Below are positions 2,686 through 63,386 of a DNA stretch of 64,000 nucleotides, piece after piece. The notes beneath the pieces are model-generated. The model was not told the origin of the DNA and did no database searches. It saw only the letters and a list, made by a program, of their open reading frames with translations. Within the stretch, counting starts at the first letter, position 1. Each line of letters starts with the position of its first letter. Source of the stretch: Rhodococcus triatomae BKS 15-14 (lineage in GTDB: Bacteria > Actinomycetota > Actinomycetes > Mycobacteriales > Mycobacteriaceae); the NCBI GenBank assembly GCA_000341795.1, contig AODO01000073.1, positions 124,001 to 188,000 of the forward strand. The letters run 5' to 3'. Position numbers and translations under genes: made by a program.

Positions 2686-3996
2686 CTACCGCACCGGCCC
2701 GGCACCGTCCGGCTCCCCCTGGTCGGCCGCCGAATCCTCCGTGTCTCCCCCGGGTTCGGGGGTGGTGTCATCGGGCGCGGGACGGGCGGTGATCTCCTCC
2801 TCCGCTTCGGCCTGCAGTTCGGCCACCCGCTCCGCGGCCTCCTCCTCGTCCAGCAGCATCTCCCCCGCCGACGGCGGCGCACCCGAGATGAGAGCGTTCG
2901 CCCACCGCGTCGACGGATCGATGTCGAGCAGCAGCGCCTTGACCAGGAGGGTCGCGGGAATCGCCAGCAGTGCCCCCAGCGGCCCGAGCACCCACCCCCA
3001 GAACACGAGCGCCAGGAAGGTCACCGTCACCGACAGGCCGACCGCGTCACCGACGAACTTCGGTTGGATCACCGACTGGATCGTGACGTTGATGACGCTG
3101 TAGACGACGATCACCCACAGCATCAGCACCGGGCCACCCTGCAGCAACGCGATGAGCGCGGGCGGGATGAGCCCGACGACGAATCCGATGTTGGGGATGT
3201 AGTTCGTGATGAAGGAGAGCAGGCCCCACAGCACCGGCAACGGGATCCCCATCGCCCACAGGGCGCCCGCGTCGATGACGGCGACGATCAGGCCGAACAC
3301 GGTCGAGACGATCAGGTAGCTGCGGGTCCCGGAGGCGAACGACGAGAAGGCGTAGGCGATGTCGGGCCGCGCGAAGGCGACTGCGCGCATCCGGTCGCCG
3401 AACGAACTCGCATCCATCGCCATGAACAGGACCAGCGCGAGCAGGAAGAAGAGGTTGGAGAACACCCCGAGCAGGCCGAGCAGGATGTCGTCGAGAAACC
3501 CGATCAGCTGACCGAAGTCGATGCTCGACAGGGCCTTGTCCACCTGATCGGAACCGATGTCGAGGCCGGAGAGCCACGTCTGCACGTCCGCGACGAGCGC
3601 GTCCGCCTTGTCCGCGTACTGCGGGAGCAAGGTCGCCAACTGTGCGATCGAGATCGCGAGGGCGGCGATCAGACCCAGCAGGATGGCGTAGACCGCCACC
3701 AGTGTCGCGACGACGGCTGCCCATCTCGGCAGGCCCTTGCGCTGCAACCAGTCCCCGAGCGGCTGCACCGCCACGACCAGCATCAGTGCGAGGAAGACCG
3801 GACCGAGGATCCCGGAGAACGACCGGACGCCGGCGATCGCGACGACGGCCCCCGCCATGGCGAGCAGGACGATCAGCCCGCGCGGCCACCCCTGGGCGGG
3901 CACGACACCCTGCTGGGCGGCGTCGGGCGCCTGCGCGGCGGCGTCGGCGCGCGTGCCGACCGATCGGTCACCGGACTCTTCACCACTGGGCGTCAC
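2686..3996 (-). CDS. AI-2E family transporter (PerM/UPF0118)
   Basis: Integral membrane protein of 436 aa with seven to eight predicted transmembrane stretches between residues 40 and 370. It has family-typical stretches such as FITNYIPNIGFVVGLIPPA and the signature-like GDAVGLSVTVTFLALVFWGWVLGP region. The N-terminal 38 residues and the C-terminal 70 residues are hydrophilic and acidic, extending beyond the usual core of about 350 aa. The family was named for autoinducer-2 export, but in actinobacteria the substrate is usually unknown and Na+/H+ exchange has also been reported for some members. It heads a two-gene operon with the PH-domain gene and is divergent from the small DUF7144-type membrane protein gene. 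Confidence 0.88.
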   Translation of the reverse strand: MTPSGEESGDRSVGTRADAAAQAPDAAQQGVVPAQGWPRGLIVLLAMAGAVVAIAGVRSFSGILGPVFLALMLVVAVQPLGDWLQRKGLPRWAAVVATLVAVYAILLGLIAALAISIAQLATLLPQYADKADALVADVQTWLSGLDIGSDQVDKALSSIDFGQLIGFLDDILLGLLGVFSNLFFLLALVLFMAMDASSFGDRMRAVAFARPDIAYAFSSFASGTRSYLIVSTVFGLIVAVIDAGALWAMGIPLPVLWGLLSFITNYIPNIGFVVGLIPPALIALLQGGPVLMLWVIVVYSVINVTIQSVIQPKFVGDAVGLSVTVTFLALVFWGWVLGPLGALLAIPATLLVKALLLDIDPSTRWANALISGAPPSAGEMLLDEEEAAERVAELQAEAEEEITARPAPDDTTPEPGGDTEDSAADQGEPDGAGPVR

Positions 3997-47747: not shown

Positions 47748-47897
47748 GGCCTCAGGATAGGCAGCCACACCACGGCGCCGCGACGCGGCTCGGACGACGG
47801 CGCCACGCGAGGGAACCGGAAGCCACGGCGGTGCGTCCAATGTTGTGACGGGTGCACAGTCACGCACCCGCCGAGACGAGGAAACGGGGGGTACGGG

Positions 47898-48221
47898 ATG
47901 GCCGAGTTCTCAGCGGTGACCGAGGGGATCCGCGCCTACGGCGGCACCGCCACGGCGATGGCGTCGGGTGTCCGGGACGCGGCGCTGGGCGCGGCCGCGA
48001 CGGGTCCGGGAGTGCTGACGCCGGTGTTCGGGCTGATCGGTGGCGACTTTCTGGCCGCATTCGCGTCGGCGCACGGCGCACACACTGCCGCGTTGACGGC
48101 GCTCGCGGACACCCTCGACGGCATGGGCGTCGCCGCGCACGCCACCGCCACCGCCTACGACGACGCCGACTGCGGTGTCGCGACTGCCGTGACCGCCGCG
48201 GGTGCGGAGGTGATCGCGTGA
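47898..48221 (+). CDS. EspC-like (DUF2580-type) protein with T7SS signal
   Basis: Small alpha-helical Ala-rich protein of 107 aa. The helix-turn-helix hairpin and the central [19 protein letters not shown] fit the EspC/DUF2580 group of type VII secretion-associated proteins. At the end of the second helix, Tyr87-x3-Asp91 (YDDAD) forms the YxxxD secretion motif. It overlaps the next gene, encoding a WXG/NlpC-P60 protein, by four bases, like other T7SS substrate pairs that are secreted as heterodimers. The start is ATG 47898 after a G-rich site. No ESX machinery genes are nearby. Confidence 0.72.
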
Positions 48222-49381
48222 TCCCCGTCGACGTGCTGACGCGTCCCATCACGGACCTGGTTTCCTCGTTCGGTTCCGGAGCCCTGCCCGCGGACGGCCC
48301 GCCGGAGGCGCTCGCCGTCGCGTCCGCCGCCCTCGATTCCGCGTACGCCCTCGGCAAGCTCGGGCTCGCCGAGCTGGGCGGCGCCTGGACGGGCGTCGCG
48401 GCCGAGGCCGCGATCACGAAGGGTGAGCAGGCGCAGGCCCAGCAGGTTCAGCTCTCCGAGCAGGGCACGGAGATCGCCCGGGTGGTCACCGCGGCGTCCG
48501 AGGTGGTCGGCGCGGGCCTCGTGGAACTGCAGGGGATCGTGCAGTCGTTCGTGTCGACCGCGATCTCGGCGGGTCCCGCGTTGACCACCCCGGCGGGCCA
48601 GATGATGATCGTGGCGTCTGCGATCGACCATCTGTCCCGTGGCCTGTCAGTGGTCGCGCGGGTGCGCGGCGAGCTCGACGTGCACACGGCAGCGATGGCC
48701 CGGTTCGTGACACCCGAACCGGTGGCCGCACCGGCGCCGGTCGGCGACATCCACGCCGTCATGAGCCGATCGATCGGAGATCCGCTGGCCGGTGTGCAGG
48801 AGCGCGGCGACTCGATCGGCGCGTTCGTCCAGCACTTCGTCGACGCGGCGAAGACGGCACCGAACCCGTTCGGTGACGGCCCGCTGTTCCCGGGGCAGGA
48901 GGCACAGGGCGACGCCGGGGGGCCGGCTGCGCTCGGCGGCAACGATTTCGGAAGCAGCGACTTCGGCAGCAGTGGCGGAGTCCAGATCCTGCTCCCCGAC
49001 GGCAGCACGGCGACGGCGCCGAACGCGGAGGCCGCGAACGCGGTGCGGAACGCGTTGAGCCAGCAGGGTGTGCCGTACCAGTGGGGCGGCACGGCGCCGG
49101 GCCAGGGCCTGGACTGCTCGGGCCTGACGCAGTGGGCGTACGGCGAGGCCGGCATCGACCTGCCGCGGACCGCCCAGGAGCAGACGGTGGGCCTTCCCGT
49201 CGATTCCGCCGACCTGATGCCCGGCGACCTCGCCGTGTGGGACGGCCACGTGGCGATGGTCATCGGCAACGGCCAGATGGTCGAGGCAGGCGATCCGGTC
49301 CAGGTGTCGGCAGTGCGCACCGGCAACATCGGGATGGGCTTCCACGGCTTCTACAGGCCCAGCCAACCGTTTAGCGCCTAA
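48218..49381 (+). CDS. WXG-like plus NlpC/P60 (C40) peptidoglycan hydrolase
   Basis: Protein of 387 aa. The N-terminal 160 residues are helical with a WTG motif at 57-59, like WXG100 proteins, followed by a Pro/Gly/Ser-rich linker (165-255). The C-terminal NlpC/P60 domain has catalytic Cys300 in GLDCSGLTQW and His344 in WDGHVAMVIGNG, so it should cut the D-Glu to diaminopimelate bond in cell-wall peptides. There is no Sec signal, which fits type VII export with the EspC-like partner. The last 10 codons use AGG, TTT and TAA, unlike the rest of the gene, and the integrase gene begins at once; the 3' end is probably attL sequence. Confidence 0.88.
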   Translation: MIPVDVLTRPITDLVSSFGSGALPADGPPEALAVASAALDSAYALGKLGLAELGGAWTGVAAEAAITKGEQAQAQQVQLSEQGTEIARVVTAASEVVGAGLVELQGIVQSFVSTAISAGPALTTPAGQMMIVASAIDHLSRGLSVVARVRGELDVHTAAMARFVTPEPVAAPAPVGDIHAVMSRSIGDPLAGVQERGDSIGAFVQHFVDAAKTAPNPFGDGPLFPGQEAQGDAGGPAALGGNDFGSSDFGSSGGVQILLPDGSTATAPNAEAANAVRNALSQQGVPYQWGGTAPGQGLDCSGLTQWAYGEAGIDLPRTAQEQTVGLPVDSADLMPGDLAVWDGHVAMVIGNGQMVEAGDPVQVSAVRTGNIGMGFHGFYRPSQPFSA

Positions 49382-49393
49382 TGTGTACCACAT
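49350..49393. other. Predicted left attachment junction (attL) of the element
   Basis: The serine integrase gene starts 1 to 10 bp after the NlpC/P60 stop. Codon choice changes within the last codons of the host gene, and a small palindrome ATGTG-TAC-CACAT spans 49381-49393. No tRNA gene is present. The crossover core cannot be fixed without the right end. Confidence 0.55.
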
Positions 49394-51330: not shown

Positions 51331-51774
51331 ATGTCCCAGGAAATCACCCAGGAGTACATCTCGGTATCCGGTGCGGCCAAGCGCTTCGGCTGCAGCACCA
51401 CCGCCGTCCGCCAGTGGATCGCAGACGGTCGAGTCGAGGCCATCAGGCTCGGACCGAAGACCATCCGGATCTTGATCTCGTCCCTCGATGACCTCATCAC
51501 CGAGGTCCTGGATTCGCCCACACCAAACCTCGCGAAGCACATTCCGAATCGCGCCCGACGACTCGCACAGAGCCACGGCCTCGTCCTCACCCTAGACATC
51601 GGCGTGTTCGGGCTTCACATCTGCGACTTGCACGGCGCGGATTGCAGGGCACGAAAGGTCACAGACGTCGACGCTCAGCATGGGGAGCATCACGAGCTCG
51701 TTTTCGCCTCTCAGGATATTGAGCGGGTTATCGCCTACCTCGACAACCCATTTGGGCCCGAACAGGCCGCCTAA
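51331..51774 (+). CDS. HTH DNA-binding protein, excisionase/MerR-like
   Basis: Protein of 147 aa. The N terminus reads EYISVSGAAKRFGCSTTAVRQWIADGRVEAIRLGPKTIRI, a winged-helix domain of the type found in excisionases and MerR-like proteins. The rest (to residue 147) has several His and two Cys (LHICDLHGADCRA) and no recognised domain. The start is ATG 51331 after AAGGAG. Being the first gene after the regulatory region and next to the integrase gene, it could be the recombination directionality factor or the immunity regulator; sequence alone does not decide. Confidence 0.75.
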   Translation: MSQEITQEYISVSGAAKRFGCSTTAVRQWIADGRVEAIRLGPKTIRILISSLDDLITEVLDSPTPNLAKHIPNRARRLAQSHGLVLTLDIGVFGLHICDLHGADCRARKVTDVDAQHGEHHELVFASQDIERVIAYLDNPFGPEQAA

Positions 51775-51848: not shown

Positions 51849-53672
51849 ATGAACGACTGCAACGTATCCGCACCCGGCAACGGCGACGCCCCACTCGGCC
51901 CCGCCGCCCACAATGTCCTCGAGCGCCTCCGCTCCCTCGGGATCCCCCTCTCCGGCGACGGACTGACGAGCGAATGCCCAGCCACCGCCCACAGCGGCTC
52001 CGAAGGTGCCGAGCTTTGGATCCACCCCAACGCGAACGGTGTCGTCCTCGAATGCGCGGACGGATGCTTCACCGACGACATCCTCGACGCGCTCGAGATC
52101 GTCGCCGAGGGTCTCGCTGACAGCTATTGGGAGCGGCAGCAGACCGCACGACGCAACGAGTGGCCGAGCCCGAACGAGCCGCACAAGGTCGCTCTCCGGA
52201 TGCTCGCCAGGCTCTCGTACCAGGGCACGCCCACCCTGCGGTATTGGCGAGGCTCCTGGATGCTCTGGGAAGGCGTGAAGTACCGGGAGGCCGAGCCGAC
52301 CGAACTCCGCCGTCACATCTACCAAACCCTCACGGACGCCGTCTACCTCAAGGTGGACGCGAAGGGGAACACCTCGCGGCCGAGGTGGGGTCCAGGAAAG
52401 ACCAAGGTGTCGAACGTCCTCGATGCGATGGAGTCCGAGACCTTCCTCAATCCCTCGGTCGGATCGCCGAGTTGGTGCGGCGGGTCCGGCGTCTTCACCG
52501 CAGCCTCGACCTCGATCATCTGCGCGAACGGGATCCTCAACATCGAGGACAAGACGTTGACGCCACACACTCCGCGTCTGTTCTCCCAGATCTCGGTGCC
52601 GTTCGACTACGACCCCGCCTCCCCGGAGCCTGTCGAGTGGTTGCGGTTCCTCGGGAACATCTTCGAGCACGACCCCGACGCGATCCACACACTCCAGGAG
52701 TACATCGGCTACATCCTCAGCGGCCGAACGGATCTCCAGAAGGGCTTGCTCCTGGTCGGCCCGAAGCGTGCGGGCAAGGGCACGATCTTCCGAGTCCTGA
52801 CGACGCTCCTCGGCGGCGAGGAGAACGTGGCCTCGACGGTGCTCGCCAAGCTCGCCAACAACTTCGGCCTCGAATCCCTCATCGGCAAGCCGCTCGCGAT
52901 CATCCCGGACGCCACCCTGGACGATAAGAACCGCGACATGGATCAGATCGTCGAGCGGCTCAAGTCGATGATCGGCGAGGACACCGTCGAGATCCCGAGG
53001 AAGTACAAGACGGACTGGGTAGGCAAGCTCGGCGCACGCTGGATCATCGGCGCGAACGCCCTGCCCTACCTCGCGGACGCCTCCTCGGCGGTCTCCTCCC
53101 GGTTCGTGGTCCTGGAACTCGTGAAGAGCTTCTACAACCAAGAGGACTACACGCTCGGTGACAAGCTCGCCGCCGAGATGAGCGGGATTCTGAACTGGGC
53201 ACTCGAGGGTCTCGATCGACTGAATCGAACCGGTAGGTTGACGACCAGCTCGCTGTCGCAGGAGCGCACCCGAGACATGGAGGACCTGTCCTCGCCGGTG
53301 TCGGTGTTCGTCCGGGAGATGTGCGACCTCGACCCCGAGGCGAAGACCGGCAAACAACAGCTCTTCGACCTCTGGGAGATCTGGCGACGCGGAGAAGGCT
53401 TCGACCGGATCAACGCCACGGTGTTCGGGCGCAACCTCAAATCCGCCGTGGCGAGCATCGGCAACTCGGCCAAGATCCCGCACCCCACCGACCCGAACAA
53501 GCGGCTCAACGCCTTCTCCGGCATCAAGCCGAAGGAGGACGCCGGGGAGCGTGCGAGTCGGGTGAGCTTCGGAGACGCCAACTTCTGGCGGGTGATGGCC
53601 GAACAAGCTGAGCCGGTGAGCCGTGAGGACTACTTCGCAGCGGACTACCCCTTCGAGGACCCTGAGAAGTAG
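51849..53672 (+). CDS. Phage/plasmid primase-helicase, P4/D5 type (SF3)
   Basis: Protein of 607 aa for element DNA replication. The N-terminal 90 residues have Cys43, His48, Cys69 and Cys73 in a zinc-finger-like arrangement as in DNA primases. A D5-N type linker is followed by the SF3 helicase domain: EYIGYILSGRTDLQKGLLLVGPKRAGKGT (Walker A at 304-312), PLAIIPDATL (Walker B region) and ARWIIGANALPYLADASSAVSSRF, motif C with the arginine finger area. No archaeo-eukaryotic primase motif was identified, so priming activity is uncertain. It is followed by the repeat-rich region proposed as origin. Confidence 0.9.
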   Translation: MNDCNVSAPGNGDAPLGPAAHNVLERLRSLGIPLSGDGLTSECPATAHSGSEGAELWIHPNANGVVLECADGCFTDDILDALEIVAEGLADSYWERQQTARRNEWPSPNEPHKVALRMLARLSYQGTPTLRYWRGSWMLWEGVKYREAEPTELRRHIYQTLTDAVYLKVDAKGNTSRPRWGPGKTKVSNVLDAMESETFLNPSVGSPSWCGGSGVFTAASTSIICANGILNIEDKTLTPHTPRLFSQISVPFDYDPASPEPVEWLRFLGNIFEHDPDAIHTLQEYIGYILSGRTDLQKGLLLVGPKRAGKGTIFRVLTTLLGGEENVASTVLAKLANNFGLESLIGKPLAIIPDATLDDKNRDMDQIVERLKSMIGEDTVEIPRKYKTDWVGKLGARWIIGANALPYLADASSAVSSRFVVLELVKSFYNQEDYTLGDKLAAEMSGILNWALEGLDRLNRTGRLTTSSLSQERTRDMEDLSSPVSVFVREMCDLDPEAKTGKQQLFDLWEIWRRGEGFDRINATVFGRNLKSAVASIGNSAKIPHPTDPNKRLNAFSGIKPKEDAGERASRVSFGDANFWRVMAEQAEPVSREDYFAADYPFEDPEK

Positions 53673-53693
53673 CAGCGACCGGGTGTCCTAGTA

Positions 53694-53994
53694 GGTGCCG
53701 CCTGTCCCAGCCCGCCAACCCATCTGGGACAGGATCTAGGACACCCAAACCCGCTGGTCACCCCCTCTTTTTCTCTCTCTTGTCCTACTTTCCTAGATAA
53801 ATACCAGAAAGAGGTAAAGATAGAGAAGAAGAGGGTATAGGAGGATATACAGAGAGAGTATGTATACCCACTCAAATCTGAGCCAGTTTTTCGCAGAAGT
53901 AGGACAGGACCTCGAGACGGCCCGGAATCCGCCTTTGACCTGCGGCGATTCTTGACAGGCCCGGAAAATCAAACTAGGACACGCAACTAGGACA
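53694..53994. repeat. TAGGACA iteron-like repeats in AT-rich DNA, putative replication origin
   Basis: TAGGACA or its complement occurs at 53694, 53737, 53781, 53900, 53975 and 53988, with the variant TGGGACA at 53703 (inverted) and 53725. The first four form nested inverted pairs (GTGTCCTAG/CTAGGACAC outside CTGTCCCAG/CTGGGACAG). Between 53761 and 53880 lie a pyrimidine tract, a purine tract partly complementary to it, and an AT-rich GGGTATA/TATACCC inverted pair. The placement right after the helicase gene suggests initiator binding sites and an unwinding element. No gene is seen in 53673-54448. Confidence 0.6.
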
Positions 53995-54058
53995 CGGAGA
54001 TCGGGATGCCGGACACGGCGAATCCTCCCGGCACTGCCTGACCGGTGAGACGGAGAAG

Positions 54059-54200
54059 GCCTCGGGGACGTATGTGGCACCCCCGAGACCTCCCCGGTGA
54101 TCGGGAGCGAAGCTACCGCCCCCGAGCCTCCTGGTGGATCGAGCGGGAGTACACCCCACTCGAGCACCTCGGTGGCCGAAGGCGAAGGCACCGCCCTCGG
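54059..54200. repeat. Degenerate tandem units of 36-39 bp
   Basis: Units at 54059-54087 (partial), 54088-54126, 54127-54164 and 54165-54200. Each has CCTC-GGTG near its start, a CG-rich purine middle, then A/CACC and an end such as CCCGAG or CTCGAG. The first contains a perfect CTCGGGG/CCCCGAG stem. The units diverge strongly, so the array is visible by spacing and pattern more than by identity. Confidence 0.5.
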
Positions 54201-54281
54201 ACACCGGAGAGCCGTGCCCGGTTACGACGGGCGCAGTTCTCGCCGAGATCGTACGACAGCCGGGTGACACGGTTTCATCGC

Positions 54282-54299
54282 ACATATTGCGGAATATGT
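54282..54299. promoter_or_regulatory. Palindrome ACATATT-GCGG-AATATGT
   Basis: A perfect 7+4+7 inverted repeat in AT-rich DNA, 150 bp upstream of the 54449 gene. It is a possible operator or small RNA hairpin; the region to 54448 holds no convincing gene. Confidence 0.4.
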
Positions 54300-54448
54300 A
54301 AAAGTTTCTCCGAATGCTCGAAATGGGCACGGTTTTACTTGTCCGCTTTCTTCGCGATTGGGAGAATGGTATTCAACAGCCGAACGCCACATAGACGATT
54401 TATCCCAGGCCGTCGGCTCCCCATTCAGATCTTTTCAAGGAGAAACAC

Positions 54449-55066
54449 ATGGCTACGGAGCCATCCCCCAACGAATTCGAGGACAACCTCCTCGCCGCAC
54501 TCAAGAAGTTCATCGAGGACATTACCGAAGCCGTCTCGACGGCTTCCGACATCACCCGCACTCTCCACCCGGTCCCGGCAGACGAGCCCTCGGTGGAAGA
54601 GGTGGACGCAGCGGCGTTGCCGGAGGACGAGCCCGCGCCCCTCATCGAGACCCCCCAGGTCTTCGTCAGAGGTGGAGGTGGAGGTGGTGGTGGAGGTGCG
54701 GGAGCCGAGACGCCAAGGGACAACCCGGGTCTCATCCGGGCGGTGGAGGCCCTCGGACAGCTGAGTGGTCGATTCTGGTTGATCGAGCCTCTCTCCGGAT
54801 CCGATGAGGGTGTCGAGTACGTCGACACGGTCATCCGGCACTGGGCGGACGGTCAGGTGCGCATCCTCCGACGTAAGCCGGAAACCGTCGCCGACAGCCT
54901 CGAGGCCCTCGGCGTCCTGAACAAGGTTGACGGTCACTTCGCCGCCCTCGAGTCTGCGATCGAGGAGATCGCCAGCGTGCCCGACCGGATCCACGCCCGG
55001 AACGCTCTGCGGGCAGTTCGCCGGACGATCGAGAAGGCCAGCGGCACAGAGGACGGTGCGGCATGA
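54449..55066 (+). CDS. Element protein with a nine-glycine linker
   Basis: Protein of 205 aa, family not recognised. It has three visible parts: an N-terminal amphipathic helix (EFEDNLLAALKKFIEDITEAVST), an acidic Pro-rich stretch to about residue 70, a pure glycine run of nine residues after VFVR, and a helical C-terminal domain of about 120 aa. The start is ATG 54449 after AAGGAGAAACAC. It opens a three-gene overlapping series. It ends with GTEDGAA, identical to the end of the next product. A link to replication or DNA binding is possible from position only. Confidence 0.75.
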   Translation: MATEPSPNEFEDNLLAALKKFIEDITEAVSTASDITRTLHPVPADEPSVEEVDAAALPEDEPAPLIETPQVFVRGGGGGGGGGAGAETPRDNPGLIRAVEALGQLSGRFWLIEPLSGSDEGVEYVDTVIRHWADGQVRILRRKPETVADSLEALGVLNKVDGHFAALESAIEEIASVPDRIHARNALRAVRRTIEKASGTEDGAA

Positions 55067-59767: not shown

Positions 59768-59891
59768 CCCCAGGGGACCACCCCGTCCCCACCGCCTCGC
59801 GGCCACCGTTGGGTGCTGCTGCTGAGGCTCCGGACGGGTCTGGGGTTTTTCGCCCGACATGGGCACCACACCCGACACGGGAGGCACAGAC

Positions 59892-60359
59892 ATGGCAGGA
59901 CGAGGTCCAGCCCCCAAACCAGAGGACCAGCGAGCCCGCGGCAAGCGATCCAACCCGAACGGACTCCGCGTCCTCGCTGCAGAGCCCTCGCCCCAGCCCG
60001 CACTTCCGGATCTGACACCTGTAGGCGAGCCCTGGCCGACCCTGACGGTGGCCTGGTGGTCGATGTGGGCGGAGTCTCCGCTCGCCGTCGAGTTCACGGC
60101 CAATGACTGGTCCGAACTGCTCGATACCGCCGTCCTCCACGCTGCCCTCTGGTCCGGCGACCACAAGGTTGCCGCAGAGCTCCGCCTCCGCGTCGCCAAG
60201 TTCGGCGCCACCCCCGAGGATCGCGCTCGACTCCGAATCACCTTCGCCGCTGCCGACGAGGCATACGACAAGCGAGAGAAGCCGACTCGCGGCTCCGATG
60301 GTCGCTACGCCGGTCTCCGATCCGTTGGCGGTGCTCAGCATGGGCTGGCGGGGTCCTGA
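59892..60359 (+). CDS. Small terminase subunit
   Basis: Protein of 155 aa. The start is ATG 59892 (MAGRGPAPKPEDQRARGKRSN) after GGGAGG; an in-frame ATG 33 bp upstream has no ribosome site. The Arg/Pro-rich N terminus followed by WPTLTVAWWSMWAESPLAVEFTANDWSELLDTAVLHAALWSGDHKVAAELRLRVAKFGATPEDRARLRI is the pattern of actinophage P27-type small terminases. It selects DNA for packaging with TerL. Its end overlaps the start of the large subunit gene. Confidence 0.85.
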   Translation: MAGRGPAPKPEDQRARGKRSNPNGLRVLAAEPSPQPALPDLTPVGEPWPTLTVAWWSMWAESPLAVEFTANDWSELLDTAVLHAALWSGDHKVAAELRLRVAKFGATPEDRARLRITFAAADEAYDKREKPTRGSDGRYAGLRSVGGAQHGLAGS

Positions 60360-62016
60360 GTACCCGGGCGAACTCCCGACTGGCGGTTGGCAGGTCCTCG
60401 AGTGGATGGCCGAGTGGTTGGTCATCCCTGATGGACCCAACGCTGGCGAGCCGCTCGTCCTGACGGCCGAACAGGCTCAGTTCGTCCTCGACTTCTACGC
60501 CATCGACCCGCACACGGGAGAGCGCATGATCCGGCGAGCGATCCTCTCCCGACCTAAGGGCTGGGGAAAGTCGCCGCTCATGGCTGGACTGTGCCTTGCC
60601 GAGGCTCTCGCCCCGGTGAAGCCGGTCGGTTGGGACGCGGACGGCGAGCCGGTACTGGCGACGTGGGAATCGCAGGGATTCAAGCCGAAGGTCCAGATCC
60701 TCGGTGTCTCCGAGGACCAGACCGCCAACACCTGGGATCCGCTCCTGGACATGGTCCGGAACGGCCCCCTCGTCGACATGCCCGGCGTCCAGGCGATGGA
60801 CACCTTCGTCACGGTCCCCCGCGGACGGATCGAAGCCGTCACGTCGAGCGCGACATCCCGAGAGGGCTTCCGCCCGGTCTTCGCGGTGTTCGACCAGACC
60901 GAATCCTGGACGGCGTCGAACGGCGGCAAAAAGGTTGCCGCTGCGGTCCAGCGAAACCTCTCCAAGATGAACGGCTCGTCGATCGAGACGCCGAACTCCT
61001 ACCGCCCCGGCTTCGGGTCGGTGGCTGAGGACTCGTTCAAGGCCTGGCAGCAGCAGCAGGAAGGGAAGCTCAAGAACGACACCGGCATCCTCCTCGACCA
61101 CCGTGAGGCTCCGGCGGATACGGACATCACCGACCGCGAGTCGATGCTCGAAGGCCTCCGGATCGCCTACGGATGCAGTGCCAACGCTCCCTGTGTCCTC
61201 GCCGAACGACACGACCACCCTGAGCACGAGCCCGGATGGGTCGAGATCCCCCGAATCCTCTCTGACTTCTGGGATCCGGCGACCGACCCCAGTGACGGAC
61301 GGATGTACTTCCTGAACCAGGTCACGTCCGCCTCGGATGCCTGGATCACCTCTCCCGAGTGGCTGAGTTGCCGCTGGGACTCCGAGGCTCGGGTCATCGA
61401 CCCGAAGGAGCCGATCGTCCTCGGCTTCGACGGATCGAGGTCGAAGGCCCGAGGCAAGGCCGACGCCACCGCACTGGTCGGCTGCACGGTCCGCGACGGT
61501 CACGTCTTCCTCATCCGCGGATGGGAGCAGCCGGACAACGTCGAGGAGTGGGAGGTCCCGACCATCGAGGTCGAGGCCGAGATTCACGACACCTTCAAGA
61601 AGTTCAACGTCATCGGCATGTACGCCGACCCCGCGAAGTGGGAGTCCTACATCGCGAACTGGGAAGCCAAGTACGGCTCCCGACTCAAGGTGAAGTCCAG
61701 CCAGAAGCACCCGATCGAGTGGTGGATGACAGGTGGCCGGAGCGGCATGGTCGCGAAGGCGCTGTCCCTCTTCCACACCGCGGTGACCGAGGAAGAGATG
61801 ACGCACGACGGCTCGGCAATGCTGACCCGCCACGTCCTCAACGCACGACGGAAGATCCGCGGCGACCTTGTCCACATCGGCAAGGAATTCCCCGACTCCC
61901 CCAACAAGATTGACGCCGCGGTTGCGGCGACCCTCGCGTGGCAGGCCCGACTAGATGCTGTCGCGCTCGGCTACGGCCAGATCAAGAAATTGCAGGCACC
62001 CAGACGTCTCCGCTGA
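60298..62016 (+). CDS. Large terminase subunit
   Basis: Packaging motor of 572 aa. ATPase: RPKGWGKS (Walker A, 85-92) and FAVFDQTE (195-202) in the Walker B position. The nuclease half has GFDGSRSKARGKADATALVG with acidic metal ligands, then MYADPAKWESYI and FPDSPNKIDAAVAATLAWQA. The start is uncertain: ATG 60298 gives MVATPVSDPLAVLSMGWRGP, which suits related proteins; GTG 60331 and ATG 60340 are alternatives. None has a strong ribosome site, and coupling with TerS is likely. Confidence 0.92.
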   Translation: MVATPVSDPLAVLSMGWRGPEYPGELPTGGWQVLEWMAEWLVIPDGPNAGEPLVLTAEQAQFVLDFYAIDPHTGERMIRRAILSRPKGWGKSPLMAGLCLAEALAPVKPVGWDADGEPVLATWESQGFKPKVQILGVSEDQTANTWDPLLDMVRNGPLVDMPGVQAMDTFVTVPRGRIEAVTSSATSREGFRPVFAVFDQTESWTASNGGKKVAAAVQRNLSKMNGSSIETPNSYRPGFGSVAEDSFKAWQQQQEGKLKNDTGILLDHREAPADTDITDRESMLEGLRIAYGCSANAPCVLAERHDHPEHEPGWVEIPRILSDFWDPATDPSDGRMYFLNQVTSASDAWITSPEWLSCRWDSEARVIDPKEPIVLGFDGSRSKARGKADATALVGCTVRDGHVFLIRGWEQPDNVEEWEVPTIEVEAEIHDTFKKFNVIGMYADPAKWESYIANWEAKYGSRLKVKSSQKHPIEWWMTGGRSGMVAKALSLFHTAVTEEEMTHDGSAMLTRHVLNARRKIRGDLVHIGKEFPDSPNKIDAAVAATLAWQARLDAVALGYGQIKKLQAPRRLR

Positions 62017-62030
62017 GAAGGGGGAACAAC

Positions 62031-63386
62031 GTGGCACTCACCCCGGAACAGTGGCTCGACCGGCTGACACGACGACTCGATGACGAGAGGCCGAGGTACG
62101 CCCTCCTGCGGTCCTTCATGACCGGCAACGCTCCACTCCCCGAGGGTGCTGATGGTTGCCGCGAGGCATACCAGAAGTTCCAGCGCAAGGCGCGCACCAA
62201 CTTCGGTGAGCTCATCGTGGATGCGGTTGCAGACCGGATGTCGATCTCCGGCTTCCGGGTCGGCGGACAGACCCAGGACGACGACATCGCCCGGAGGATC
62301 GTTCGGCGAAACCGGCTGGGGAGCAAGTCCAACGACGTCCACCGCGACATGCTGGGCCTCTCGGCCGGATACACGATGGTGCAGGCGGGCCCGAAAGGCG
62401 CGATTGTCACGCACGAGCGTCCAGAGCAGGTCATCACCGAGACCGACCCTCTGTTTCCGACGGTCGTTCGGGCTGGGCTCAAGGTCTACCGCGACCAGGT
62501 CCTCGGCCATGACTTTGCCTTCCTCCACCTTCCTGGTGTGGTGTTCCGCTACTCCCGCCCGTTGTTCGACGAGCGCGGCGACCTGGTCGACATGCCCTCC
62601 ACCCAAGGAGGTTGGACGCTCGTCGGAGAAGAGCCGACGATGCAGTCGTTCGTGTCGATCTATCCGTTCGAGAACCGTGACGGGCTCGGCGAATTCGAGA
62701 CATACACCGATGTCCTGAATCGCATCAACTGGGATGTCCTACAGCGCCTGGTCCTCACGGCAATGCAGGCGTATCGACAGCGAGCCCTCAAGGGCGAGAT
62801 GGCAACCGAGGACGCCGAGGGTAATCAGATCGACTACTCCTCGATGTTCACCCCGGGTGCCGGTGCCTTGTGGCAGCTTCCGGCAGGTGTCGAACTCTGG
62901 GAGTCCCAGACGACAGACCTGACGTCGATCCTCTCGGCAACCAAGGAAGACATTCGAGAGCTTGCCGCGGCCACCAGAACCCCGATGTCCATGCTCATGC
63001 CGGACAGCGCAAACCAGTCCGCCGAGGGCGCGGCATCCGCCCGAGAGGCCTTGGTGTTCAAGGCCCAGGACCGGATCGCCCGGGCTGGCTCGGTGTGGGA
63101 TGCCGTCATGGGTGCCGCTCTGGCGATCGAGCAAGGCCTCGACCAGCCCGTCGAGGACGTCGAGACGCTCTGGATCCCAGTCGAGCGTCGAACCCTGCAG
63201 GAGCGAGCCGACGCCGCATCCAAGGCCCAGGACATCCCCTGGCGCAACCGGATGACGGACATCTGGGGGTACAGCGCGGAACAGGTCGACGCAATGGAGG
63301 CCAACCGAGCCTCCGATGCCCTCAACGCTGCGATGTTCACACAGATGCCGGCAAATTCGAAGGCTGTCGCCGATGGCGACGCCTGA
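62031..63386 (+). CDS. Phage portal protein
   Basis: Protein of 451 aa of the actinophage (SPP1/HK97-like) portal family. The start is GTG 62031 after AAGGGGGAA. Family-typical sequence: LLRSFMTGNAPLPEGA...AYQKFQRKARTNFGELIVDAVADRMSISGFR, later VLNRINWDVLQRLVLTAMQAYRQRALKG and the helical LAAATRTPMSMLMPDSANQSAEGAASAREALVFKAQDRI that forms the crown and channel loop. It forms the dodecameric vertex through which DNA is pumped by the terminase. It overlaps the next gene by 14 bp. Confidence 0.93.
   Translation: MALTPEQWLDRLTRRLDDERPRYALLRSFMTGNAPLPEGADGCREAYQKFQRKARTNFGELIVDAVADRMSISGFRVGGQTQDDDIARRIVRRNRLGSKSNDVHRDMLGLSAGYTMVQAGPKGAIVTHERPEQVITETDPLFPTVVRAGLKVYRDQVLGHDFAFLHLPGVVFRYSRPLFDERGDLVDMPSTQGGWTLVGEEPTMQSFVSIYPFENRDGLGEFETYTDVLNRINWDVLQRLVLTAMQAYRQRALKGEMATEDAEGNQIDYSSMFTPGAGALWQLPAGVELWESQTTDLTSILSATKEDIRELAAATRTPMSMLMPDSANQSAEGAASAREALVFKAQDRIARAGSVWDAVMGAALAIEQGLDQPVEDVETLWIPVERRTLQERADAASKAQDIPWRNRMTDIWGYSAEQVDAMEANRASDALNAAMFTQMPANSKAVADGDA

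Follow-up and report, generated by a model that had tools for sequence, protein, structure and literature searches.

A cluster of TAGGACA sites directly downstream of an SF3 helicase gene as the probable replication origin of a Rhodococcus triatomae prophage

Excerpts from two reports describe the SaPI/PICI origins as two iteron sets that flank an AT-rich region (PMC6092414, PMC7581432). The second of them places the SaPI origins just downstream of rep and shows that, in the SCCmec protein Cch2, a C-terminal domain binds repeats located just downstream of its own gene (PMC7581432). AICE replication modules were described with a Prim-Pol and, in one case, with a D5-type protein, and the word "iteron" is absent from the main text of that description (PMC3218068). 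The consulted sections of a paper on mycobacteriophage origins cover RepA-type and RNA-based origins, with primase, SF3 and helicase unmentioned in them (PMC7157519). We found no paper in the open-access literature on an origin of the type considered here in actinobacterial prophages.

Here we analysed a 64,000-nucleotide stretch of the Rhodococcus triatomae BKS 15-14 genome (referred to as the window, with positions counted from its first letter), in which an SF3/D5-type helicase gene is directly followed by a cluster of short repeats. The best explanation of the sequence data is that 53681-53994 is the replication origin of a prophage and is used by the adjacent SF3 helicase, and we hold this reading to be very probably correct. 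The following features of the prophage were identified:

49344..49359, + strand: presumed att core, 16 bp (exact repeat at contig C72:211244)
49383..50972, + strand: serine integrase of the prophage (Pfam, PHROGs)
51331..51774, + strand: small HTH protein encoded immediately before the helicase (Pfam, PHROGs; HTH_17 below the curated cut-off)
51849..53672, + strand: SF3/D5-type helicase, 607 aa, replication initiator candidate (Pfam, PHROGs, profile)
59859..63386, + strand: small terminase, large terminase and portal of the same prophage (Pfam, PHROGs)

The carrier of the iteron stretch is a full-size prophage and not a PICI: instead of a satellite without the full structural gene set, we found terminase, portal, major tail, tape measure and minor tail genes. 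The last three lie past the end of the window, where 8 of the 10 frames scanned were matched, and an HNH gene is also among the prophage genes inside it (Pfam/PHROGs). The pair of exact 16-bp repeats gives a prophage length of ~37.9 kb, which agrees with the 36,977 bp of an IMG/VR record carrying the identical helicase (100% identity) and beginning at about window position 49392. The att core is located in the 3′ end of a host frame (47852-49381, NlpC/P60-like by eye), so that the insertion apparently lies where a coding gene ends. The HTH protein (51331..51774) is a candidate excisionase or regulator. A 205-aa protein (54449-55066), with a nine-glycine run at window 54671-54697, had no Pfam or PHROGs match.

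Pfam assigned residues 135-273 of the helicase to D5_N and residues 302-412 to the DUF5906/SF3 core, while DNA primase families of PHROGs matched residues 113-582, which is the helicase part. No primase catalytic domain was found by Pfam in the 607-aa protein, and its first 100 residues received no assignment from Pfam or PHROGs. A profile built from 77 proteins, the window's own and 76 out of 78 listed relatives, matched 7ola, which we take to be the SaPI5 primase-helicase (its database name is DNA primase), with an E value of 5e-28 and reaching the C-terminal part of 7ola. The C-terminal region of the window helicase (~481-566) aligns with the winged-helix-like tails of its relatives. A tail-only profile of 77 members matched the winged helices of RFX5 and hRFX1 (8zjr and 1dp7; E 4e-6 and 4e-5, respectively), and of the 77 profile members, Pfam (E 0.01) detected Pox_D5 in 50, with RFX_DNA_binding detected in 18. 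The tail of the window protein itself was reached by no Pfam model, neither Pox_D5 nor RFX_DNA_binding, and its last 140 residues matched no solved chain at E 10. According to excerpts from a 2023 report, the fold of the tail of an ASFV helicase resembles both the origin-binding domain of P4 and the DNA-binding domain of Rfx1 (PMC10516667), so the link between D5 tails and RFX was already known. No Rep_3/RepA-type initiator was matched by Pfam among the window proteins scanned.

The helicase stop is followed by a gap of 776 bp (53673-54448), which ends at the co-directed gene 54449. The gap contains:

53684 (-), 53737 (+), 53781 (-), 53900 (+), 53975 (+), 53988 (+): TAGGACA sites (motif search)
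53703 (-), 53725 (+): TGGGACA sites (motif search)
53681..53746, no strand: left iteron group, two nested perfect inverted pairs, with the sites 53684 (-), 53703 (-), 53725 (+) and 53737 (+)
53763..53886, no strand: AT-rich core, ends approximate, presumed melting region (AT content, arms)
53763-53786 and 53812-53835: pyrimidine arm and purine arm, 24 nt, 83% complementary
53781..53787, - strand: TAGGACA at the left edge of the AT-rich core, with a one-mismatch match also at 53789
53830-53839 and 53863-53872: GGGTATA and TATACCC arms
53900..53994, + strand: right iteron group, three direct sites (TAGGACA at 53900, 53975 and 53988)

The original prediction had counted six TAGGACA and two TGGGACA sites from 53694 onwards. 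The counts are right and the start is not: the true span is 53684-53994, since a start at 53694 omits the site at 53684 and leaves only five of the six TAGGACA. That first site begins 12 bases beyond the helicase stop. The nested inverted pairs attributed to the first group turned out to be exact, the outer pair (53681-53691/53736-53746) over 11/11 and the inner pair (53701-53710/53724-53733) over 10/10 positions, and as a single strand the left group folds strongly (z -5.3). The last two TAGGACA are direct and 13 bp apart, as had been described (53975, 53988), and the complementary pyrimidine and purine tracts and the GGGTATA/TATACCC pair are likewise present. The core had been called unlike anything else in the window, which holds for its AT content: the 80-bp AT maximum of the 64 kb is 65% at 53787, and the runner-up place elsewhere has 61%. 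In 60-bp windows the AT content of the core rises to 0.63, versus 0.32 at the start of the gap and past the last site. The sites are 7-12 bp long and in both orientations, and the long direct iterons of classical Rep_3/RepA plasmids were not found.

Such a concentration of sites is beyond chance. TRGGACA occurs 20 times in the 64-kb window versus 8.1 expected, with 8 of the 20 inside 53684-53994; no second cluster is present in the window, where the other matches are scattered singly, and the rest of the prophage has three scattered TRGGACA at contig 187900-205000 and none from 205000 to 211244. In 20,000 first-order Markov gap sequences the mean was 0.07 for TAGGACA and 0.15 for both words, and neither ever exceeded 3, compared to the 6 TAGGACA and 8 sites of both words observed in the gap. 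Among 500 Markov gap sequences, no 7-mer formed a cluster of more than 4 copies, versus the 6 observed. The word of the window's cluster is CTAGGACA, and CTAGGACAC has 10 copies in the 5.8-Mb genome, 4 of which are in the iteron stretch. A DNA similarity search with the origin itself gave no match in 50,697 phage records.

A search with the single helicase protein gave no relative in genome contigs and only the same element in viral contigs (IMG/VR). The relatives surveyed came from whole genomes (18 of 401, 6 of 397 and 9 of 394 genomes matched, with the own genome counted in each), from phage and plasmid records (16 chosen by hand from 819 and 247 matching records), from IMG/VR (the best 80 of 290, leaving out the window's own element among them) and from genome contigs (the best 80 of 155). 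The named-record relatives are mostly from Streptomyces, and also from Nonomuraea, Mycobacterium, Nocardia and others. The resulting 205 loci, including the window, were reduced to 123, window included, by clustering at 85% identity; two did not have the room on both sides that the test requires, and 120 loci were tested besides the window. In a blind scan of each, all 7-mers were considered and the one most strongly clustered in a 350-bp stretch was taken, wherever in the locus it lay.

In 65 of the 120 loci, against an expectation of 10.8, the top cluster was no further than 450 bp from the 3′ end of the helicase gene (P 2e-36 by exact convolution, and 5e-13 with the most cautious single rate). 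Tighter identity cut-offs of 0.60, 0.50 and 0.40 left 39/67, 28/46 and 11/21 near the 3′ end, respectively. The 800 bp that precede the helicase gene held no more top clusters than chance would give (10 versus 9.6 expected, 120 loci). By source, the cluster was near the 3′ end in 10/18 loci of family genomes, 4/10 of order and class genomes, 6/16 of phages and plasmids, 37/59 of IMG/VR and 8/17 of genome contigs; the family stretches had prompted the idea of a constant cluster position, and the remaining sources are independent of that idea. The same place and layout, with other words, are observed after many related helicase genes. A simple rule, to search the 3′ end of the D5/SF3 gene for a short word that clusters, pointed to candidate origins in 65 of the 120 related elements.

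In the other 55 of the 120 loci the top cluster was not near the 3′ end. These include 6 of the 10 order and class loci (L050, L051, L053, L054, L056, L059) and 10 of the 16 phage and plasmid records (L064-L071, L073, L075), the latter being actinophages, a Salmonella phage and a Vibrio phage; in 6 of these 10 a DNA polymerase gene starts within 1.3 kb of the helicase end. In L023, L052 and L057 the cluster is within the 3′ coding end of the helicase. Clusters were also seen upstream, within ~330 bp of the helicase gene in L032 (GGTGACA, 12 copies) and L034 (GCGTGAC, 7 copies), and further upstream in L038 (TAAATCA, 11 copies; 3590-3934 of the oriented locus).

Described origins served as positive controls. 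In P4 the annotated crr, directly after the alpha gene, was the top cluster (GTGAACA) and the annotated ori the second (GGTGAAC), and in Sfi21 the annotated origin after the putative primase was the top cluster (GTAACTA; score 6.5 versus 6.3 for the next). The blind scan also marked phi105 and the satellite Javan307 at or just after their genes. From the position found by the blind scan and the recovery of P4 crr, P4 ori and the Sfi21 origin, we conclude that with this stretch a full-size prophage most likely carries a Rep-ori module of the SaPI/PICI/P4 type. The origin reading of the original prediction gains support from the cluster position in the relatives and from the equal placement of P4 crr and the Sfi21 origin. 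Of its expectation that the repeats recur in related elements, the architecture stood, in about half of the relatives, and the letters did not.

Clusters of TAGGACA were absent from the first 19 relatives (L003-L021, with a flank of ~1.5 kb at most), and conservation of TAGGACA as such was rejected, the word being unclustered there. Pattern scans of IMG/VR for TAGGACA gave at least 144 loci, at 12 of which the gene neighbours were examined, and most of the pattern matches listed are not beside SF3 genes. Among the 144 loci listed, blast (E 1e-6) found an SF3 relative in 13, including the window's own element (L375), and a cluster of at least 7 sites together with an SF3 relative in three besides L375, namely L353, L326 and L297, the last with its cluster ~3.5 kb from the SF3 relative. 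Directly after DUF5906 (SF3-type) genes, 7-11 TAGGACA sites were found in L353, L326, L331 and L266/L284 (L266 and L284 are alike); L331, L266 and L284 were missed by the blast search, their neighbours being DUF5906 by Pfam. The tails beside these clusters match the family tail profile (E 4e-25 to 8e-9).

Other TAGGACA arrays have different surroundings. In L377 (4037-4269), 13 sites directly follow a 763-aa AAA_25 protein, of another ATPase family, which was rejected as a bearer of the same tail (tail profile E 0.72). Tandem TAGGACA with a 9-bp period were seen in L319 (627-741, 13 copies) and L242 (3271-3349, 9 copies), and no SF3 relative was found near these two arrays in the contig stretch.

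A cluster scoring at least 8 is near the 3′ end in 65 of the 123 loci, window included, and its word varies: CCCTGCACA, CCCTGAACA, GGTGGCACAGGT, TGACACAGG, GGGTTACC, GGGAACA, as well as CTAGGACA in the window and GGTGAACA in P4. That the place is constant while the word changes between elements is, in our opinion, the most interesting part. A post hoc filter, which dropped three CAGGGAG-type repeats and five clusters centred more than 450 bp away, left 57 of the 65 loci. In these 57, the AT maximum inside the cluster had a median percentile of 0.999 of its own locus and was in the top 5% in 89%; against same-length random stretches of the same locus, it was in the top tenth for 36 of the 57. 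Sites are depleted in the cluster AT maximum (109 versus 146 expected, 57 loci), and hence, with the AT percentile, two groups round an AT-rich core are the usual layout, with exceptions that include L055, L057, L079, L161 and L211. The two-group layout is not peculiar to the window.

ACA/TGT is present in 20 of 56 words (window excluded); of 64 control clusters taken from other parts of the loci, 5 have it (Fisher p 2e-4). The more alike two helicases are, the more alike are their words, a weak relation that nevertheless exceeds chance (rho 0.17 to 0.25): on the 65 loci rho was 0.20 for the core, and 0.17 for the tail with a Mantel p of 0.003, and on the 57 loci the Mantel p for word versus initiator similarity was 0.001. 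In partial Mantel tests on 65 loci, tail given core gave p 0.166 and core given tail p 0.022; on the 57 loci (eight dropped post hoc and tails realigned) the values were 0.008 for the tail and 0.076 for the core. It was not established that the C-terminal tail alone sets the word, in whose prediction it has no clear lead over the core. Some of the most word-similar pairs have only remotely alike proteins (L036/L006, L231/L101), and a given word thus also seems to turn up independently. The RFX half-site is RGYAAC. At least 5 of its 6 positions are matched by 16 of the 57 consensus words, compared to a column-shuffle mean of 4.4 and a maximum of 10 in 200, with kinship of the loci uncorrected; the window's word fits it poorly by eye.

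Tentatively, and with more doubt than confidence, we propose that the SF3/D5 initiators of phages, plasmids and integrative elements may form one self-loading family with RFX-like winged-helix tails, whose 7-10 bp words would be rewritten by lineage on a common theme (a terminal ACA, perhaps akin to RGYAAC), with place and two-group layout fixed. If true, initiator sequence and iteron word would be a readable protein-DNA code that predicts the origins of unknown elements.

Some properties of the gap may also suggest that the sites are operators of a prophage regulator, in the manner of repressor operators or stoperators, that control the genes from 54449 on: they lie between co-directed genes in a gap of 776 bp, some of them as inverted pairs, and an HTH gene is located upstream of the helicase. 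Operators, however, are not expected to track helicase 3′ ends across remote elements, and the single scatter of the other TRGGACA in the window and prophage, with no second cluster, also speaks against them. No sigma-70-like promoter was detected in 53600-54500, a scan that may miss actinobacterial promoters. We consider the operator role quite improbable.

It is very unlikely, in our judgement, that the inverted pairs and the pyrimidine/purine hairpin represent transcription terminators or an RNA element instead. Although 53673-53760 folds as RNA (z -5.3) and 53755-53900 as DNA (z -3.95), the first of these folds is a by-product of the inverted iterons, and three sites are direct and unpaired. 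Neither the terminator scan nor Rfam supported this reading: the scan found none in 53673-53994, its two matches being at 54315 and 54449, and the ten Rfam matches, on the pyrimidine/purine hairpin, were all miRNA models far below their gathering scores. A terminator could coexist with an origin.

Partition or transfer sites (ParB or TraB/FtsK-type repeats) hardly come into consideration, for although some relatives carry other repeat clusters (CAGGGAG, CCTGACC), and in L183, L213 and L220 CAGGGAG follows the helicase at a distance within 0.1-0.75 kb, CAGGGAG where it is a top cluster is mostly ~3-6 kb upstream of the helicase 3′ end, the CCTGACC of L062 is at the end of an FtsK-type gene, and scans of nine window proteins turned up no partition gene (Pfam, PHROGs). 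In L062 (1713-1866) there are seven CCTGACC at the 3′ end of the FtsK/SpoIIIE gene, and L176, L177, L194, L202, L205 and L208 have 8-9 CAGGGAG ~3.9-5.4 kb upstream of the helicase 3′ end. L062 and the CAGGGAG loci belong to Streptomyces/Pseudonocardia relatives, and we presume that both kinds of cluster are transfer-site repeats (clt/TRS).

For the origin reading, we propose that the prophage would first excise, after which the SF3 helicase (51849-53672) would act on the origin. It would bind the 7-10 bp iterons via its C-terminal winged-helix-like domain, with one oligomer per iteron group, and the AT-rich core between the groups would be melted. Two hexamers would then be loaded, one on each strand, and unwind bidirectionally, and the host primase and replicase would complete replication. 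The stretch offers, in a GC-rich bacterium, a testable candidate origin of a prophage with a serine integrase.

Compared with the described systems, Streptococcus phage Sfi21 likewise has an annotated non-coding origin, of 302 bp, directly after a putative primase gene; it differs in its word (GTAACTA), in being a low-GC phage and in its remote helicase (22% identity). SCCmec Cch2, as far as the excerpts describe it, shares with the window a helicase gene with repeats just downstream, but has three 5-nt iterons and belongs to a staphylococcal chromosome cassette. P4, with alpha, crr and ori, has mixed-orientation short type 1 repeats directly downstream of its SF3 gene, as in the window, and the ACA end of its word GGTGAACA is common to many survey words. 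On the other hand, P4 has two cis regions ~4.7 kb apart and another word, whereas the window prophage has one cluster only, and primase and helicase joined in one protein as in P4 were not found, with no primase catalytic model in the window helicase (Pfam). The SaPI/PICI Rep-ori (SaPI5 PriRep1, E. coli PICIs) differs from the module in the window, which lies in a prophage with terminase, portal and tail genes and has an initiator without a detected primase catalytic domain. Their likeness, which concerns layout and initiator and not a comparison of iteron letters, consists of a D5/SF3-type initiator with the origin directly 3′ of its gene, as given in the same excerpts, and of two iteron sets about an AT-rich region, for which the window has 4-5 sites, the AT core and 3 sites. 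Judged by these sequence features, the module would work like the SaPI/PICI Rep-ori and would be a known kind of origin.
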